Source of the DNA: Geitlerinema sp. PCC 9228
GTDB lineage: Bacteria; Cyanobacteriota; Cyanobacteriia; Cyanobacteriales; PCC-9228
Reading direction: 5' to 3'
Assembly: GCF_001870905.1 (NCBI RefSeq)
Contig: NZ_LNDC01000104.1
Location: 37,157-87,580, forward strand
DNA: 50,424 nt
Part shown: piece by piece, positions 14,771 through 24,243 of the stretch
Layout of the letters: every line of letters starts with the position of its first letter
Position numbering within the stretch: position 1 is the stretch's first letter
The notes under the pieces: model-generated
What the model was told of the DNA's origin: nothing
Databases searched by the model: none
What the model saw: only the letters and a program-made list of their open reading frames with translations
Program-made: the position numbers and the translations under genes

Positions 14771-15847
14771 CTACCGAGAAGTGCCCACGGCTTCCTGGGA
14801 AGGAGAAGAAGCCACCATTTCGGAGGAGCGCCCTTCCCAAAGTTGGGCAATCTTGCTGAAATCGACCCCAGCAGCGCGCAAAGCATGCCAGAGGTGACCC
14901 TGCAAGAAGAAAAAGGCAAGGAAAAAGTGAGCGTTGGCCAGCCAAGCCCGAGGCGTATACGTTCCTGGTTCCAACTCAGCTGTATCCGCAAAATACGGTA
15001 CGAAACTGACCTGCAACTCCAACGTGGGACCGTAAAATTCCACCGGATAAGCCAGGGTATTGAAAGCACAGAAGGCAGTGGCAACGAATCCTGCCAAGGC
15101 AATTCCCCCTAAAGAGTAAGACAAAATGGCTTCCCCAGAGAAGTTGAGCAAGCGTTTCGCCCAAGCAAACGGTTCCTGCACGATATGCCAAATCCCGCCT
15201 GCCAACAGCAAAATGGCAACGTAGATATGACCGCCAACCAAATCTTCTAAATTGTCAACCCAGAGGAAATCAGTTTGATAGCTGTAGATAACCCAAGGGT
15301 TGAGGGTGGGATTGCTCACCTGACGAACTTCACCCAAATTGGGGTCGTAGAGACCACCACCAGCGGTGGCGTGGAAAACAAAGAGCAATGCACCCAATCC
15401 CAGGAAAATCAAGTGGATACCGAGGATAGACCCCAGTTTTTTCGGGTCGTTCCACTCAAAATGGAACTTGGCAGCACCACCGGAAGCCTGTTGCAAATCG
15501 CTGGGAACGCGCGTTTGGTGGAAGAAAGCACCAAATCCCAACACGCCAGAAGAAATCAGATGGACCACACCCACCACGTAAAAGGGATAGGTGTCGATCG
15601 CTTCTGCGCCTTCTGTCATGCCCAAGCCTAAAGCCGCCAGATGGGGCAACAGAATCAACCCCTGTTCGTACATGGGGGTTGCTGGGTTATACTGGGAGAG
15701 TTCAAAGAGGGTAAATGCGCCTGCCCAAAACACAATCAGGGCAGCGTGGGCAATGTGGGCGGTGAGAAACGTACCGGATAAATTCGCCAGCCGGGCGTTT
15801 CCCGCCCACCATCCATATCGGACTTGAAAGTTTCCGTAAGTTTGCAT
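14771..15847 (-). CDS. CP43-like chlorophyll-binding antenna protein (IsiA/Pcb family), third gene
   Basis: The 358-residue protein has six membrane segments of the CP43-like fold, with short lumenal loops as in IsiA/Pcb. Family landmarks are [14 protein letters not shown] near the N-terminus, [44 protein letters not shown], and a final helix ending [22 protein letters not shown]. It carries an extra C-terminal tail of about 25 residues ([16 protein letters not shown]). The start has an excellent GAGGAGG site. It lies 20 bp after the IsiA-PsaL gene, so it is the last gene of the operon. It should bind chlorophyll a around a photosystem, most likely PSI given its neighbour. Confidence 0.92.
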
Positions 15848-15867
15848 GAATGCCTCCTCAATGCAAG

Positions 15868-17265
15868 TTAGTTAATCGTGCCGCGAAAGATAGCATCGAT
15901 GACCTCAAAGTTTTGCAAAAGAAAGTAAGCGACCCAAGCGCCGCCAACGCCGCCAATTAGGAAGCTAGCGCGAAATTGATTCCAATCTTGTTGGTCTTGC
16001 AGCCAGTAGAAGATGGTGCCTTCCCGACAAGCAGCGAGAACGACGGTGACGATGCCGATAATTGCAGCAGCAGCTAGCAAGGCAGTTTGGCGAATCCAAC
16101 TAGGTTCGGAGAACGGACTGAGCGTCACAAACGGACCCACCAAGAAATAACCGTGAGCCATGCCAATTTCCAATCCACGCCACATGGGCGATAAGCCGCG
16201 ACGGTAAACGGGCAAATTGGCCAAAAATATCAGCGTGGCTTCGCCAGAACCAGTATTGGCAGCAAAGACACCGCGACGCATGTCAAAGCCACCAGCACGC
16301 GATCGCACTCTGACCGCATGCCAGATGTGCCCTACCAACAGCAACGTAGCCAAAACCACATGGGTCGTTGCCAGCCAAGTACGAGGCGCGATCGCACCAT
16401 TAGCCGTTTCCGACCAACCCAACGGTCCGTAAAATTCCACCGGATAAGCCAGGTCGTTGGTCGTGACAAAATAAGCAGCCAAAAATCCGGCATACGCCAA
16501 AGCCCCTAGACTGTAAGACAAATAAGCTTCGCCAGACCAATACAGCACATCTCGCGCCCATTTATAAGGTTTCGAGACCACGTGCCAAATGCCACCGCCG
16601 ATACACAAAAGTCCAACCCAGATATGACCGCCAACCAGGTCCTCCAGGTTATCCACAGCAGCCATTCCTGCTGGACCTTGCGATCCCACCAGGTAGCCAA
16701 AAATGCGGATGGGATTGAACGTCGGGTTGCTGACAACGCGAACGGATTGAATATTGGCATCGTACAAACCGCCAGCGTAGGTCGCCTTAAAAGCCAGCAG
16801 CAACGCTCCCAATCCCAGCAAAATCAAGTGAATGCCCAAAATCGAGGTCATTTTGTCCTGGTCTTGCCAGTCGTAGCCGAAAAAGCCAGGAATCGACTTC
16901 TCTTGCGGCAAAACCTCCGGACCTAACAAAGCGTGGTAGACACCACCAGCTGCCAAAACGGCGGAACTTACCAAATGCAGCACCCCGACAACCAAATAAG
17001 GATAGGTGTCCACAATTTGTCCGCCCTCGGCAACACCAAATCCCAAAGTTGCCAAATGCGGCAGCAGAATCAGTCCTTGTTCGTATAAAGGTTCGCCGGG
17101 ATGGTAACGAGAAAGTTCGAAGAGGGTAAACGCGCCTGCCCAGAACACGATTAAGGCTGCTTGTGCGACGTGCGCGCCTAGTAATTTTCCGGAAAGGTTC
17201 GTCAAACGCGCATTGCCTGCCCACCAACCGTAAGCTCGTTCTGGAACCGTGGTTGTTGCCGTCAT
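15868..17265 (-). CDS. IsiA-PsaL fusion: CP43-like antenna with C-terminal PsaL domain
   Basis: I chose ATG 17265 (465 residues, [15 protein letters not shown]) because it overlaps the stop of the upstream isiA-like gene as ATGA and is preceded by AGGAGG; a frame extends upstream but is non-homologous. Residues 1-338 are an IsiA-type six-helix antenna. Residues 345-465 match Psa[34 protein letters not shown], a second helix, then [19 protein letters not shown]. PsaL is the PSI subunit that forms the trimer interface, so this protein can be expected to dock at that site of PSI and bring antenna chlorophyll with it (inference). Such fusions are known in some cyanobacteria with several isiA-family genes. 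Confidence 0.93.
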
Positions 17266-18242
17266 AGGTTCGTGCCTCCTAATGCCTTCATGCGAGCGCG
17301 AATGGCGTGCCAAAGATGGCCAGCTAAGAAAACAGCCGCCAAAGCTATATGGGCTGTCGCCAGCCAAGTCCGTGCGGTGACAGCACCGGATGCTTCTTGC
17401 AAGCCGACGGGACCGTAAAAGACTTCTGGATAGGCAAAGTCGTTGACGGTAACGAAATAAGCCGCCAAAACACCCATATAAGCCAAAGCCCCCAAACTAT
17501 AGGAAAGATAAGCTTCCCCAGACCATACGAACAAACGCTTGGTCCAACCAAAGGGTTTGCTGGCAATATGCCACAAGCCGCCAACAACGCAGAGAAAGCC
17601 GACCCAAGCGTGACCGCCGACCAGGTCTTCTAGGTTATCCACAGCAGCCATGCCTTGACTGCCCACCAGATAGCCGAAGATTTGAACTGGGTTGAAGGTG
17701 GGTTGGGTGACCACTCGTACTGCTTCTGCATTGGGGTCGTACAAACCGCCCCAAAACATGGCTTTGGTGACCAACAACCAAGCCCCCAATCCCAGCAAAA
17801 TTAGATGAATGCCGAGAATGGTGGTCATTTTGTTGGTATCCTGCCAGCTGTAGCCGAAAAAGCCAGCAAAGGTATCGTCTCGCGACAGTACGCGCGGACC
17901 GAAGACGGCGTGGTAAATGCCACCAGCACCCAAGACGGCAGAACCAACCAGATGCAAAACGCCAATAACGAAGAAGGGATAGGTATCTGCAATTTCCCCG
18001 CCATCGGCAACTCCCAATCCTAAGGTGGCGAGATGGGGCAGCAGAATCAACCCTTGTTCGTACATGGGTTGTGCTGGGTTGTATTGGGCGAGTTCGAAGA
18101 GGGTAAAGGAACCTGCCCAAAAGGCGATTAAACCGCTGTGAGCGACGTGCGCGCCCAACAGTTTCCCCGATAAATCGGTGAAGCGAGCGTTCCCTGCCCA
18201 CCAACCGTAGTTGGATGGTGATGGCAATGTGGTTGTGCTCAT
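17262..18242 (-). CDS. isiA: IsiA-like iron-stress chlorophyll-binding protein
   Basis: This 326-residue CP43-like protein has six membrane segments and the family motifs [64 protein letters not shown] and [16 protein letters not shown]. IsiA rings around photosystem I act as an accessory antenna and quencher under iron limitation. It is the first gene of a three-gene leftward operon. The TATAAT -10 box lies inside a 23-bp palindrome (18271-18293), giving a leader of roughly 30 nt. The symbol is by family; I cannot distinguish it from other Pcb-type members without a tree. No flavodoxin gene (isiB) is present in the window. Confidence 0.88.
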
Positions 18243-18463: not shown

Positions 18464-18636
18464 TAATACCAAATCTTCGGTCCTCCCCCTCCTCCCCCTC
18501 CTCCCACTCCTCCTCCTCCTCCCACTCCTCCCACTCCTCCCACTCCTCCCACTCCTCCCACTCCTCCCACTCCTCCCACTCCTCCCCCTCCTCCACTGGC
18601 AAGTACCCATTAGCGAGGTTTTTCAGGATTCGGTAG
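18464..18636. repeat. pyrimidine-rich 9-bp tandem array, possible MITE-like element
   Basis: The left end TAATACCAAATCTTCGG resembles the family end sequence. About 18479-18597 is an array of CTCCCACTC-type 9-mers, the complement of the array at 10197-10323. A weak candidate right end, GGATTCGGTA (18627-18636), lies over the last codons of the regulator gene, so the element may have reshaped that gene's C-terminus. Confidence 0.5.
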
Positions 18637-19273
18637 CTGCGGGAAGATGCTTTTTGAGAATCATGCGCCGCTTCTCGTCAAAACTGAGAATGCCTTGGTC
18701 TTGGAATTTACCCATTAGGCGGGTAACGGTAACGCGGCTGGTACTGATGGCGTTGGCGAGTTCTTGGTGGGTGAGGCGAATGCCAATTCGGGTTCCTTGG
18801 GGGGTGGTTTCTCCCATTTCCTGTTGCAGCCATTGCAGAAGTTGTTGCAAACGTGTTTCAACACGACGCTGTCCCGCGATCGCTAACAATGCCTCCACTT
18901 GCTGCAGTCGCTGGTTGATTTGCGGCAGTAGCTGTTGCGCTAGGGTGGGCGAAGATTCGATTTCGGTCATGGAATACCAAGTTAAATAGACATCTGACTG
19001 AGCTTTGGCTTGATAGGTGGGCAAGGAAGTCAACCAAGACCCAAAACACAGATTCGGACCAACCCAACCAACTAAGCCTTCGTCTCCATTTGAATAAAAT
19101 GTACTTACCTGCACGTATCCCTGGCAAACTTGCCATACACCAGGAAGTCTGGAGCAAATCTCTTGACCTTTGCGGTAAAACAGCAAGCGATTGTCTCCTA
19201 AGCGATCGCGAAGCGTTCCCCAACGAGAACTGCGGCTTTTGGTTGATAGTGAGGGTAACATGCTGGTGCTCAT
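18623..19273 (-). CDS. CRP/FNR-family transcriptional regulator, IdiB-like by context
   Basis: I start at ATG 19273 (216 residues, MSTSMLPSL) because GAGGAG lies 10 nt upstream. The N-terminal half is a cupin-like effector domain (LLFYRKGQEICSRLPGVWQV to WVGPNLCFGSWL). The C-terminal half has a CRP-type helix-turn-helix, LTHQELANAISTSRVTVTRL, with a recognition helix like that of NtcA. The four-Cys pattern of FNR is absent. It is co-oriented with the antenna operon and has a Fur box and an operator like theirs in its own upstream region. In Synechococcus the CRP-family regulator IdiB controls iron-stress genes; assigning this protein to that role is inference. Confidence 0.85.
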   Translation of the reverse strand: MSTSMLPSLSTKSRSSRWGTLRDRLGDNRLLFYRKGQEICSRLPGVWQVCQGYVQVSTFYSNGDEGLVGWVGPNLCFGSWLTSLPTYQAKAQSDVYLTWYSMTEIESSPTLAQQLLPQINQRLQQVEALLAIAGQRRVETRLQQLLQWLQQEMGETTPQGTRIGIRLTHQELANAISTSRVTVTRLMGKFQDQGILSFDEKRRMILKKHLPAATES

Positions 19274-19506
19274 TTGTTGGCATCTCCTCAGCGATTCGGT
19301 GGTCCCGACTTGCAGGGCTGGACTTTTGTTGCAAATCATGTTTAACGATTGCATTCTAATTTTATTAAAAATAATTTGCAACTTTGCAACCAGTATTGGG
19401 GTCGTCTATCTCCGAGTTACCAGCGATCGCTTTTGCCTGTTTTTCCCGATATATGGAAAATTTGAATTTTATACATATTTTGTCTTTATCTATATTTTGG
19501 TTGTTT

Positions 19507-19994: not shown

Positions 19995-22643
19995 ATGCCT
20001 GATACCTCCATTCCTCTCTATCCCGAACCTGCCAAAGTTCCCGCCGATCCCTACGAATACCTAGAATATGAAAACTGGCTTGCCTTTCACCGGGTTTGGG
20101 GGAAAATGAGCGACGATACCATAAATGCGATCGCCCGTCACTTACAAGCTTTGCCCATCCCCGCCAACACCCCTATTTACCAAGAAAACCAAACCCCCCA
20201 AGGCATCTATTTCCTCAAATGGGGAACCGTAGAAATTTACCGCCAATCCCCCGTCGGCAAAAGCCACATCACCTATCGCAACGCCGGGGAAGTTTTTGGC
20301 TACTTGCCCCTGGTCAGCAACCAATGGCAACATAAATACCAAGCCAATGCGATCGCGCTTACCAGCAGCGAAGTTTGGTTTCTGCATCGGGATACCCTCC
20401 AAACCCTCACCCAAAAATATCCCGACCTGCAGCAAGCCATTACCAGCCTGTTGGTACAAGACCTAGAGCGATTTACCGAACGAATCGCCAGCGAACAAGC
20501 CCGAATTCAGGGATTGCAACCCTACCTGCAACCCCTGCCCAACCAAGAAGGCATCGTGGGTTCCAGCAAACCCAGCCAAAAACTCGCCAAATCCGTCGAA
20601 ACCGCCAGTCAAGACCAAAAACCCATTGTTTTCCAAGCCCAGCGGGGTACCGGCAAAACCTTCATCGCCGGCTTAATCCACCAACAATCCTCCCTACAAA
20701 ACCAACCCTTCGCCGAAATTGACTGCGCCACCCTGGTTCGCGAAGCAGGAGGTACCATCAACAGCGATCGCATTTTTGGCAGCGGCGAACACACCATTGG
20801 CATCCTAGAACTGGTCGAACGCGGCACCCTCGCCATCGACAACGTGCATTTGCTCAGCAAATCCGACCGCGAACGGCTGTTTGAATACCTAAAAACCGGC
20901 ACCATCTACCGCAACCATGCCACCACCCCTCGACAAATCTCCGTTCGCCTAATTCTCATCGCCCCGCAGAAATTAAACCTCCCCGACATCGACCACCACA
21001 CCATCAAACTTCCACCCCTCACACAACGCAAAGCCGATATTGGCGAATTTGCCCGCCACTTCGTTCGTAAGTTTTGTCAAGAAAGCGATCGCCCCTTCCT
21101 CGAACTCGACCAAGCCGACCTGCGGCGCTTAATTAGCTACAACTACCCCGGCAACATCGCCGAACTCGCCGCCATCCTCGAACGCGCCGTCGCCATGACC
21201 CCAAGCGGGCAAACCGTCATCCCCGAACAAGTCTTGTGGTCGGTAGAATCCCAGAAAAACAGCTTTCGCATCGATTTACTCAACTTTATCCCCGGCTTGC
21301 GCAAATTCCTCCTCAGCGACTGGTGGCCCCAGCGCACCTGGATTTTAATGATGCTTGTCTTTGTTCCCGTCACCCTCATGGGCTTCATCGGACCGCAAGG
21401 GCGCGACGAAAGTATCACCTTGCACTTATTCTGGGCGTGGTGGTGGCCTTTTTACCTGCTGTTGTTCCCCATTTTAGGGCGTTTGTGGTGTTCCGTATGT
21501 CCCTTTATGATAACCGCTGAATGGTTGCGCAACCTTTCCTTGTGGATATTCCCCCGTTCCCTCAAACCTTGGAACACCAAAGCCTTAAATCGTTGGGGCG
21601 CTTGGTGGCTTTGGGCAGGATTCGTCGCCATTTACATCTGGGAAAAACTCTGGGATTTGCCCCACAGCGCCTACCTCTCCGCCTGGTTGTTAATGATTAT
21701 CACCGGCGGTGCCATTATCTTTAGCCTAATTTACGAACGTCGCCTGTGGTGCCGCTACCTGTGCCCCATCGGCGGCATGAACGGATTATTTGCCAAACTC
21801 TCCGTTGTGGAATTGCGATCGACCCAACAAGTGTGTGGCAGTCAGTGCAGTACCTTTGGCTGCTACAAAGGCAGCGATGCCACCCCAGTAAACTTTCCCG
21901 ATCCTTTGCCCACCGAAGGGCAAGCCACCGGCGGCTGCCCCCTCTATTCCCATCCCGCCCAATTAAAAGACAATCGCGATTGCATGTTCTGCATGACCTG
22001 TTTGAAAGCCTGCCCCAATCGTTCCGTACAGCTCAATCTGCGCTTTCCCGCCGCCGACATCCTGGAAAATCACCAGCCATTTTGGGCAGAAGTGGCGTTG
22101 CTGGTGCTATTGCTGGGTGGCGTTTTCATGCACCAAGGCAATAAATTTCTCAGCTGGTTTGGTTGGGGCGATATTCCCTTGGATTCGGAACATTTGTTGG
22201 TTTCTTTGCCAGTGGTATCCCTGCTGTTAAGTATTCCCTTTGTGTTAACCTATGGAATCCACCAACTGACGCGCTTGTGGATGCGTTTGGTCTTTCCTAG
22301 CGGGCAACAGACATTTCCCGAATACCTCCAGGTTATCTATGCCTATCTGCCTCTCACCCTGGGTGCCAATTTGGCATACTATATCCCCACGGCGATTACC
22401 GAGTCGGGAACGCTTTTGCCCACATTAGCGCGTACGGCTGGTTTTAGCGGTGGTATGCTGCCGACGCTAACCTGGAGTTTGGATGTAGCTAATTTCTTGC
22501 AAGGTGTGGTGCTGTTGTGGTCTTTTGGGTTTAGCGTTTATCTGCTATCGGGGATTACCAAGCGGTTTGTGAAAGCCAATCTTCCCCATATTTTGTTGAT
22601 GCTGGGGTTGACGGTGGTTTTCTTTCCGTTGATGGTGTTTTAA
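19995..22643 (+). CDS. cNMP-binding + degenerate NtrC-type AAA+ + polytopic Fe-S membrane protein
   Basis: I prefer ATG 19995 (882 residues) to an upstream in-frame TTG at 19932. Order: CRP-type cyclic-nucleotide domain (about 40-165); AAA+ domain like sigma54 activators (about 200-420) with Walker A QRGTGKT (216-222); then eight or nine membrane helices carrying NapH/FixG-like cysteines. These are CSVCPF (499-502), CRYLCP (586-590), C614/C618/C623, and a ferredoxin motif CMFCMTCLKACP (663-673). The AAA+ part lacks the sigma54-contact GAFTGA loop, has Asp-Asn (AIDNVH) instead of the Walker B Asp-Glu, and has no C-terminal DNA-binding domain. It is thus likely a membrane redox protein gated by nucleotide sensing rather than a transcription activator (inference). 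cysK follows 37 bp downstream. Confidence 0.85.
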   Translation: MPDTSIPLYPEPAKVPADPYEYLEYENWLAFHRVWGKMSDDTINAIARHLQALPIPANTPIYQENQTPQGIYFLKWGTVEIYRQSPVGKSHITYRNAGEVFGYLPLVSNQWQHKYQANAIALTSSEVWFLHRDTLQTLTQKYPDLQQAITSLLVQDLERFTERIASEQARIQGLQPYLQPLPNQEGIVGSSKPSQKLAKSVETASQDQKPIVFQAQRGTGKTFIAGLIHQQSSLQNQPFAEIDCATLVREAGGTINSDRIFGSGEHTIGILELVERGTLAIDNVHLLSKSDRERLFEYLKTGTIYRNHATTPRQISVRLILIAPQKLNLPDIDHHTIKLPPLTQRKADIGEFARHFVRKFCQESDRPFLELDQADLRRLISYNYPGNIAELAAILERAVAMTPSGQTVIPEQVLWSVESQKNSFRIDLLNFIPGLRKFLLSDWWPQRTWILMMLVFVPVTLMGFIGPQGRDESITLHLFWAWWWPFYLLLFPILGRLWCSVCPFMITAEWLRNLSLWIFPRSLKPWNTKALNRWGAWWLWAGFVAIYIWEKLWDLPHSAYLSAWLLMIITGGAIIFSLIYERRLWCRYLCPIGGMNGLFAKLSVVELRSTQQVCGSQCSTFGCYKGSDATPVNFPDPLPTEGQATGGCPLYSHPAQLKDNRDCMFCMTCLKACPNRSVQLNLRFPAADILENHQPFWAEVALLVLLLGGVFMHQGNKFLSWFGWGDIPLDSEHLLVSLPVVSLLLSIPFVLTYGIHQLTRLWMRLVFPSGQQTFPEYLQVIYAYLPLTLGANLAYYIPTAITESGTLLPTLARTAGFSGGMLPTLTWSLDVANFLQGVVLLWSFGFSVYLLSGITKRFVKANLPHILLMLGLTVVFFPLMVF

Positions 22644-22680: not shown

Positions 22681-23643
22681 ATGCAAATTTACAACGATAT
22701 TACTGAAATTATCGGGCGTACGCCGTTGGTGCGGTTGAACAAATTGCCCCAACAGTACGATTGCGTGGCGGAAATTGTGTTGAAGCTGGAAAGTTTCAAT
22801 CCGGCGAAGTCGGTGAAAGACCGCATTGCTATTAGTATGGTGGCGGAAGCGGAACGCAGTGGGTTGATCGAACCGGGCAAATCTACGATTGTTGAGTCTA
22901 CTTCCGGCAATACGGGGATTGGTTTGGCAATGGTTTGTGCGGCGAAGGGATATCGCACGATTTTGACGATGCCGGAGAATATGAGTCGGGAACGTATGCA
23001 GCTGTTGCAAGCTTATGGGGCGGAAATTGACACGACGCCGGCGAAGTTGGATATGGCAGGTGCGATCGCGCGTGCTAACGAACTGTTGGCAACAATTCCC
23101 AATTCGTTTTCTCCCCAACAGTTTAGCAATCCCGCCAATCCCAAAATTCACTATACCACAACGGGGGTGGAACTTTGGCAGGATACCGATGGTGAGTTGG
23201 ATGCTGTGGTGTTGGGAGTGGGTACTGGCGGTACGCTTACGGGGGCAGGACGTTATTTGAAACAGAAAAAAAACGATTTGCAGTTGATTGCGGTGGAACC
23301 AACGTTGAGTCCGGTTTTGAGTGGCGGTTGTTCCCAAGTCCACAATTTACAGGGGATTGGTGCTGGGTTCGTTCCCGATGTTTTGCGGGTGGATTTGATT
23401 GATGAAATTGTTACCGTTAGCGAGGAACAAGCTTATAAAATAGGGCGAGAACTGGCGAAAGAGGAAGGAATTCTGAGTGGCATTTCTACGGGGGCAGCCG
23501 TCTATGCGGCTTTGCAATTAGGACAGAAGGCTAAATGGAGGGGAAAACGGCTAGTAGTTATTCAACCCAGTGGCGGGGAACGGTATTTGAGTACCCCCTT
23601 GTTTGCGGAAACCAGCGAAAATACAGAAGTGCCGGTTTCTTAG
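22681..23643 (+). CDS. cysK: cysteine synthase (O-acetylserine sulfhydrylase)
   Basis: The 320-residue fold-type II PLP enzyme has its Schiff-base Lys46 in NPAKSVKDRIA, substrate loop ESTSGNTGIGLA (about 76), PLP phosphate loop GTGGTLTGAG (about 181) and the conserved SGGCSQVHNLQGIGAGFVP region. It makes cysteine from O-acetylserine and sulfide. It lies between the Fe-S membrane fusion and kptA, all rightward with gaps of 37 and 9 bp, so the three are probably co-transcribed. Cyanobacteria usually have more than one paralogue, so this may be a specialised copy serving Fe-S or sulfur-stress needs (inference). Confidence 0.94.
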   Translation: MQIYNDITEIIGRTPLVRLNKLPQQYDCVAEIVLKLESFNPAKSVKDRIAISMVAEAERSGLIEPGKSTIVESTSGNTGIGLAMVCAAKGYRTILTMPENMSRERMQLLQAYGAEIDTTPAKLDMAGAIARANELLATIPNSFSPQQFSNPANPKIHYTTTGVELWQDTDGELDAVVLGVGTGGTLTGAGRYLKQKKNDLQLIAVEPTLSPVLSGGCSQVHNLQGIGAGFVPDVLRVDLIDEIVTVSEEQAYKIGRELAKEEGILSGISTGAAVYAALQLGQKAKWRGKRLVVIQPSGGERYLSTPLFAETSENTEVPVS

Positions 23644-23652
23644 ATTGTTTGT

Positions 23653-24243
23653 ATGGATGCCAAACGAAGAAAAAAGGTCAGCAAATATCTTTCCAAAATT
23701 CTGCGGCACGATCCCCATCGGATTGGTTTGGAATTGGATCCGGGGGGTTGGGTGAATTTGGAAACCCTGCTATCGACTTTTCGCGAATATGGGGTGGAGA
23801 TGGCTGCCGAAGAGATTGTTGATGTGATTCAAAAGTCGGATAAACCTCGGTTTGCGTTAGAACCCATAGATAAAGAAGAAAGTGGCGATCCAGTAGCCAA
23901 TCCTTCGCTGTTTCGCATTCGTGCGGCATACGGACATTCGTTTTCTGTGGATTTGGAACGTAAGCCGGAAGCACCGCCGTCGGTTCTCTATCACGGTACG
24001 GCAGCACAATTTGTTGGGTCGATTCAACAGGAAGGGTTACAATCGATGGGGCGGCAGTTCGTTCATCTTTACGAATATCCGGAAGGTGCTTGGGCTGTGG
24101 GCAGACGTAAGGGGCGATCGCGACTTTTTTCTGTTAATGCTGCGGCGATGTATGCTGATGGGTATGCTTTTTATCACGTAGGCGAGGGAATTTGGCTGAC
24201 TCGTACGGTGCCGCCTGGATATTTGCAACTTCAATCCATATAA
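23653..24243 (+). CDS. kptA: RNA 2'-phosphotransferase KptA/Tpt1
   Basis: The 196-residue protein has the two halves of the family: an N-terminal winged helix (KVSKYLSKILRHDPHRIGLE, then LDPGGWVNLETLL) and a C-terminal NAD-binding part with YHGTAAQFVGSIQQEGLQSM and RSRLFSVNAAAMYADG. The Arg-His-Arg-Arg catalytic set is consistent with KILRHD, RAAYGHS and the later basic residues. The family transfers a 2'-phosphate from RNA to NAD. In bacteria, which lack the matching tRNA splicing, the natural substrate is unknown. The start is 9 bp after cysK. Confidence 0.93.
   Translation: MDAKRRKKVSKYLSKILRHDPHRIGLELDPGGWVNLETLLSTFREYGVEMAAEEIVDVIQKSDKPRFALEPIDKEESGDPVANPSLFRIRAAYGHSFSVDLERKPEAPPSVLYHGTAAQFVGSIQQEGLQSMGRQFVHLYEYPEGAWAVGRRKGRSRLFSVNAAAMYADGYAFYHVGEGIWLTRTVPPGYLQLQSI

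Follow-up and report, generated by a model that had tools for sequence, protein, structure and literature searches.

A cyanobacterial protein joining a CRP-like domain and a PspF-like AAA+ domain stripped of hydrolysis residues to an Fe-S membrane module, linked in one clade to cysteine synthase and sulfide genes

Four kinds of described system come closest to the gene reported here: bacterial enhancer-binding proteins, the CRP/FNR sensor domain, the NapH, NosR and RdhC membrane proteins, and the sqr gene clusters of cyanobacteria. In the enhancer-binding protein PspF, the Walker B substitution E108Q lowers ATPase activity to <1%, tightens ATP binding ~30-fold and gives constitutive hexamers (PMC4132715), and substitutions of the arginine-finger residues R162 and R168 likewise abolish ATPase activity and yield hexamers (PMC3419264). 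The membrane segments of NapH, NosR and RdhC are proposed to oxidise quinol, and their Cys motifs are essential (PMC5928378). Published companions of cyanobacterial sqr are ArsR, petC2, TauE, rhodanese and psbA (PMC5061849, PMC11304991); term searches of the text of these two papers returned no mention of the protein described below or of its partner cysteine synthase. In Synechococcus 7002, polysulfide raises pdo, rhod, tauE, cysK2, psbA and petC, and a gene named 'nifA' falls under polysulfide and H2O2 (PMC12466478).

A three-part gene and its two clades

The window, a stretch of 50,424 nucleotides from Geitlerinema sp. PCC 9228 (NZ_LNDC01000104.1, positions 37,157 to 87,580), contains a gene that combines parts resembling the first three of these systems:

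19995..22643, + strand: whole gene, CRP-like domain, pseudo-AAA+ domain and Fe-S membrane module (882 aa; phylum-wide architecture)

As an earlier note made from the letters had read it, the three parts lie in one frame (19995-22643, +; 882 aa), along which Pfam places cNMP_binding, Sigma54_activat, AAA_lid_14, two Fer4_5 stretches and a weak Fer4 match, in that order. The predicted structure (mean pLDDT 84.7) opens with a beta-roll and its long helix, continues with the AAA+ core and lid, and ends in a membrane half made of helices; residues 612-657, near the first ferredoxin cysteines, are poorly modelled. In NCBIfam, NifA, DhaR and PspF score best against the AAA+ part and NapH against the membrane part; each stays far under its cut-off, and the protein is therefore without a curated NCBIfam family. 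The literature searched gave no described function for it, in agreement with the earlier note, and term searches on SQR plus cysteine synthase returned nothing on this gene.

A domain-architecture search, proposed in that note as a check, found the three-part fusion again: among 386 genomes surveyed across the phylum, >70 matches cover all three parts, and a scan of named genomes gave 506 relatives, of which the best 80 of 506 were retained, every one cyanobacterial. Since the architecture recurs across the phylum, it is neither a chance product nor a fusion of frames by assembly error, the artefact that the note had raised against itself; the identical frame is present in many assemblies. A degenerating lone gene is likewise ruled out, as all relatives share the losses described below and have retained the Walker A Lys and the 12 Cys. 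We also rejected a role in defence, as the PADLOC matches are to RtcR/PspF-type AAA+ and CRP-like domains only.

Several variants of the architecture were observed. In the small genomes of one family (f26) matches start near residue 165, so the CRP-like part is missing or unrecognisable there. Copies split into two frames or carrying several stops (L042 3039-5761; G648:C317; G656:C568) are possibly pseudogenes or sequencing errors. Proteins of a distant family, f39, carry two tandem PspF-like AAA+ domains each (G321:C44:1408-2877; G106:C1; G325:C24), and their match to the query is restricted to the AAA+ part.

The tree separates the window's clade (62 rows) from a sister clade (27 rows) with full support, and the nearest relatives of the window gene include Spirulina subsalsa and Phormidium pseudopriestleyi, the latter photosynthesising in sulfide (PMC8002359). 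The sister clade is widespread and has no conserved neighbours in the loci inspected. The window's clade is patchy, present in 39/391 genomes of the order. Plasmids carry members of it in Pseudanabaena galeata and in Aulosira laxa, whose plasmid is typed as conjugative. Where the window-clade gene occurs, it mostly accompanies a sister copy in the same genome (386-genome survey). The window genome encodes a second copy on another contig, at 40% identity.

The CRP-like and AAA+ head

Four features define the N-terminal half of the protein:

20067..20534, + strand: CRP-like beta-roll and long helix, residues 25-180 (Pfam cNMP_binding 55-142; predicted structure)
20553..21230, + strand: NtrC/PspF-type AAA+ core and lid, residues 187-412 (Pfam; PDB sequences; best Foldseek matches are PspF structures)
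20637..20660, + strand: Walker A AQRGTGKT, residues 215-222, intact (alignment of relatives)
20832..20846, + strand: Walker B AIDNV, residues 280-284, catalytic Glu replaced by Asn283 (alignment of relatives)

The AAA+ half is of common ancestry with sigma54 activators. It matches Sigma54_activat (PF00158) at residues 187-327 with 60.2 bits (cut-off 20.2) and AAA_lid_14 at residues 344-412 with 50.5 bits, reaches E-values down to 7e-19 against bacterial enhancer-binding proteins among PDB sequences, and superposes on PspF in Foldseek (E 5e-13, TMt 0.77), where the first match is the E108Q Walker B mutant.

We followed the catalytic residues through an alignment of 93 relatives, with 66 sequences from the window's clade and 27 from its sister. 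The loss of GAFTGA and the exchange of the Walker B Glu for Asn, both read by the earlier note in the single protein, extend to the family: GAFTGA is found in 0/93, and the Walker B position (AIDNV in the window protein, FLDEL in PspF) is Asn in 84/89 readable sequences, Gln or His in the rest and Glu in none, so that no homologue with both motifs intact occurs among the 93. Two further losses went unremarked in that note. The arginine-finger segment (RxDxxxR motif; FRADLLDRL in PspF) is deleted across the family, and the sensor I Asn is replaced in every relative aligned. The reading of YPGNIAELA as a departure at sensor II does not stand, as PspF itself reads WPGNIAEL and only the W to Y change differs; the sensor II Arg is kept in every sequence readable there. 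The Walker A Lys is kept in 89/89, with the form GxxGxGKT intact in the window protein, and the sister clade reads GEPGLEKD or GEPGLGKD, always with Asp at the Thr position. The term 'crippled' thus suits the hydrolysis machinery of the domain and not its Walker A.

This pattern suggests that the AAA+ domain probably binds ATP without hydrolysing it and that it may serve assembly or gating, with a putative ring. Of the two roles suggested in the note, gating or assembling the redox module, assembly by an active motor is made less likely by the disappearance of all hydrolysis features. Across the whole family, nature appears to have arrived at an equivalent of the Walker B trap mutants made in the laboratory for AAA+ proteins.

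The protein is not a transcription activator, since the Pfam scan found no HTH in it and sigma54 (PF04552) is absent from the window genome (the same profile was found in 4/14 control genomes). The paradox stated in the earlier note, a sigma54-activator-like AAA+ domain in an organism without sigma54, therefore holds for the window genome, and the absence of sigma54, GAFTGA and the Walker B Glu supports its view that the AAA+ domain has been repurposed, here outside transcription, and joined to a redox module in the membrane. Database records name members of the family, for example, 'nitrogen assimilation regulatory protein'; because the protein cannot be a sigma54 activator, such names mislead network reconstructions.

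The CRP-like domain, which the note had called nucleotide-sensing, gives a clear cNMP_binding match (residues 55-142, 56.5 bits, cut-off 27.5). In the window's clade the FGE motif reads FGY, replacing the phosphate-binding Glu with Tyr, and the partner Arg, the basic residue of the cNMP pocket, is not conserved; the sister clade is without both the FGE-type Glu motif and the basic residue. The sensing of nucleotides is therefore unsupported, the canonical cNMP phosphate contacts being missing.

The membrane Fe-S module

The remaining residues form a multi-pass membrane half with clustered cysteines:

21255..22640, + strand: membrane module, residues 421-882, 8-9 long helices, 12 conserved Cys (alignment; hydropathy; predicted structure)
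21489..21503, + strand: first Cys pair, CSVCP (CX2CP), residues 499-503, at a transmembrane helix end (conserved 65/65 and 27/27)
21750..21767, + strand: second Cys pair, CRYLCP (CX3CP), residues 586-591 (conserved in all)
21834..22016, + strand: ferredoxin-like segment, C614, C618, C623 and C648 plus CX2CX2CX3CP (663-674) (low model confidence)

The earlier count of at least twelve Cys in cluster-like spacing was correct: the protein has 14 Cys, and the 12 in the membrane half (499, 502, 586, 590, 614, 618, 623, 648, 663, 666, 669 and 673) are conserved in all or all-but-one of 93. Fer4_5 (PF12801) matches in two stretches (33.4 bits, cut-off 22). Fer4 scores 16.9 bits, under its cut-off of 21.1, in a segment with eight conserved Cys and one canonical CX2CX2CX3CP; judged from their number, these Cys would suffice for two [4Fe-4S] clusters. 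Averaged hydropathy and loop charge predict a cytoplasmic position for the ferredoxin segment and for the two Cys-pair motifs.

The membrane half is a candidate for working in the manner of NapH and NosR, yet falls outside strict membership on two counts: one motif is CX2CP and one CX3CP, where membership asks for two CX3CP, and the NCBIfam NapH/MauN model scores 32.1 bits against a cut-off of 213. Among solved structures, Foldseek returned no relative of this half at E <=0.001 and VIA-align gave Z <=5.4, a result that falls short of proving a new fold.

Stand-alone relatives of the membrane half, plasmid-borne, were observed in several settings. On a plasmid of Ca. Chlorohelix allophototropha, a stand-alone 4Fe-4S membrane protein (L168 5659-6597) is encoded within a group of sulfane-sulfur genes that also includes TusA, rhodaneses, DsrE, TauE and ArsR, and the relative in Sulfurovum adjoins a TauE/SafE gene. 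Those in Azospirillum and Rhizobium adjoin genes for the FTR1 iron permease and cupredoxin. As such relatives also occur in iron uptake, sulfur is not the sole use of the module.

The CRP-like and AAA+ domains are signalling modules, and for RdhC, which is related to NosR and NapH, the original proposal was a role in transcriptional regulation (PMC5928378). The protein could on these grounds be a membrane-bound sensor or regulator: its Fe-S module would read the redox state, its head would pass the signal on to transcription or a partner protein, and no electron flux would be carried. We consider this improbable: the protein has no DNA-binding domain, the genome no sigma54 and the AAA+ domain no hydrolysis, 12 invariant Cys and a membrane part of 460 residues suggest more than sensing, and for RdhC the same paper argues for electron transfer instead of regulation (PMC5928378).

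Sulfide neighbourhood, proposed function and known systems

The gene has one conserved partner in the window's clade:

22681..23643, + strand: cysteine synthase, CysK family, 320 aa, 37 bp downstream (the clade's conserved partner gene)

A cysteine synthase lies directly downstream at 38/66 non-redundant window-clade loci and at 0/27 sister-clade loci. With two or three such genes per genome, chance would not come near to placing one beside over half of the loci; the other cysteine synthase of the window genome is 58% identical to the neighbour. No cysK is near the remaining 28/66 loci, for some because contigs end. We scored a wider sulfur set within 10 kb (cysK, SQR-like, rhodanese, DsrE, TauE, persulfide-dioxygenase-like, ArsR and Hdr-like genes) and found at least one member at 45/66 window-clade against 1/27 sister-clade loci, and at 25/66 against 1/27 with cysK set aside; the p-values of this linkage are optimistic, because the neighbour profiles (HMMs) were built from the clade's own neighbours. 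SQR-like genes, a label for NCBIfam similarity to type III SQR under its cut-off, are present in 35/39 genomes with the gene and 95/352 without it (OR 24, uncorrected for phylogeny).

The sulfide islands of the window's clade contain SQR-like, rhodanese, DsrE, TauE, petC and psbA genes. Two are plasmid-borne, ~15 kb in size and have transposases nearby (L157 and L158); between them they hold DsrE, rhodanese, petC, psbA, NifX-like, FAD oxidoreductase and ArsR genes. At two further loci (L039 and L040) clade members lie inside heterodisulfide-reductase-like gene clusters with an SQR-like gene. The genes raised by polysulfide in Synechococcus 7002 (PMC12466478) are of the same kinds as those in the islands, and the 'nifA' of that strain may belong to this family.

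In the window, cysK is the one member of the sulfide set that adjoins the gene. One SQR-like type is present in the window genome on another contig, and the other type had no match in that genome. The SQR-like gene is followed by genes named by eye as an RND adaptor and a Tll0287-like protein (L162 9944-13989, G000:C94); both kinds are also near other window-clade loci. Directly after cysK is a KptA/Tpt1 RNA 2'-phosphotransferase (23653-24243, +; PF01885). Upstream, on the opposite strand, lies a Crp-type HTH regulator (18623-19381, -) with no Pfam cNMP match in its N-terminal half; we rejected it as the gene's regulator, as it is not conserved as a neighbour. Beyond it are a tandem array (18481-18594) of 12.7 copies of the 9-bp unit TCCTCCCAC and three tandem isiA/Pcb-like chlorophyll-binding protein genes (14771-18242, -). 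Genes of the isiA-like kind are of the iron-stress type; one further such neighbour was found, at a sister-clade locus (L049), and they are not conserved.

A check of gene neighbours, also proposed in the earlier note, therefore divides by clade, with cysK and sulfide genes conserved in the window's clade and no neighbours conserved in the sister clade. The linkage of the window's clade to cysteine synthase and sulfide islands is new here, having been missed in that note, and it points to sulfide, not to generic iron or sulfur stress.

Two other readings of the neighbourhood were weighed. A membrane metal reductase of the CcoG or FtrD kind could supply iron or copper when sulfide makes metals scarce, so that the link to sulfide would be indirect. 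The FTR1 and cupredoxin neighbours of the stand-alone relatives in Azospirillum and Rhizobium, FeoB near three window-clade loci and the isiA-like genes beside the window gene speak for it, but the constant partner is cysK and no metal transporter, and FTR1 and cupredoxin are not among the clade's recurrent neighbours; we think it unlikely. Alternatively, the islands could be primarily microaerobic sets (psbA and petC variants, heme oxygenase, HemN, cytochrome bd) in which sulfide genes ride along since the conditions coincide. Genes for psbA, petC, HO, HemN, cydAB and ADO-like proteins are indeed near several window-clade loci, and petC2 beside sqr is cited as raised under low oxygen (PMC11304991). 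Such genes are near 4 to 9 of 66 loci, however, against 38/66 for cysK, which has no obvious low-oxygen role, and a low-oxygen protein has a correspondingly small share of our confidence.

The explanation we favour, with slightly more confidence than doubt, is a membrane Fe-S electron-transfer protein of the NapH/NosR type that works in the metabolism of sulfide or sulfane sulfur and carries an AAA+ head unable to hydrolyse ATP. The CRP-like and PspF-like head would sit on the cytoplasmic side of the membrane module, which may link the plastoquinone pool by electron transfer to a sulfur compound of the cytoplasm that accepts or donates electrons (sulfane sulfur, persulfide or sulfide), the direction and partners being inferred. 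SQR alongside would feed electrons from sulfide into the same plastoquinone pool, and co-produced CysK would fix the resulting or excess sulfide as cysteine. Bound to ATP, the head may act as a scaffold or lid, and a ligand or partner would prompt it to assemble or gate the module. In a bolder and more tentative form, which we hold possible though doubtful, a permanently ATP-bound ring of the sigma54-activator type, a natural ATP trap, would be a ligand-gated lid over a membrane quinone-sulfur oxidoreductase, making a new class of respiratory or photosynthetic complex for life with or on sulfide.

The gene thus probably encodes not the gene switch named in databases but a so far unstudied protein of electron transfer in life with sulfide. 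If the sulfide link is true, it is an overlooked conserved membrane component of sulfide-adapted, possibly anoxygenic cyanobacteria, and with a defined partner (CysK) and plasmid-borne copies it is directly testable.

Compared with known systems, the protein shares with PspF, NtrC and NifA an AAA+ core and lid of the Sigma54_activat family, and differs from these enhancer-binding proteins in lacking GAFTGA, the Walker B Glu, the arginine-finger segment, an HTH and a sigma54 in its genome, and in its fusion to a membrane protein. Like the CRP/FNR sensor domain, its N-terminal part has a Pfam match above cut-off and a beta-roll followed by a long helix, whereas it reads FGY instead of FGE, does not conserve the basic residue and has no HTH. 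With NapH, NosR and RdhC (PceC) it has in common a multi-pass arrangement, Fer4_5 motifs and two Cys-pair-Pro motifs at helix ends, and with NapH and NosR also a ferredoxin-like segment. Unlike those proteins, it has CX2CP as its first motif, no FMN-binding domain, about twice the size and an N-terminal CRP-like and AAA+ head, and it is not near nap, nos or rdh genes. The cyanobacterial sqr clusters (that of Geitlerinema PCC 9228, the suo operon of the Synechocystis plasmid and the petC2/tauE/rhodanese clusters) are alike in their companions, with SQR-like, ArsR, psbA, petC, TauE and rhodanese genes found in both.
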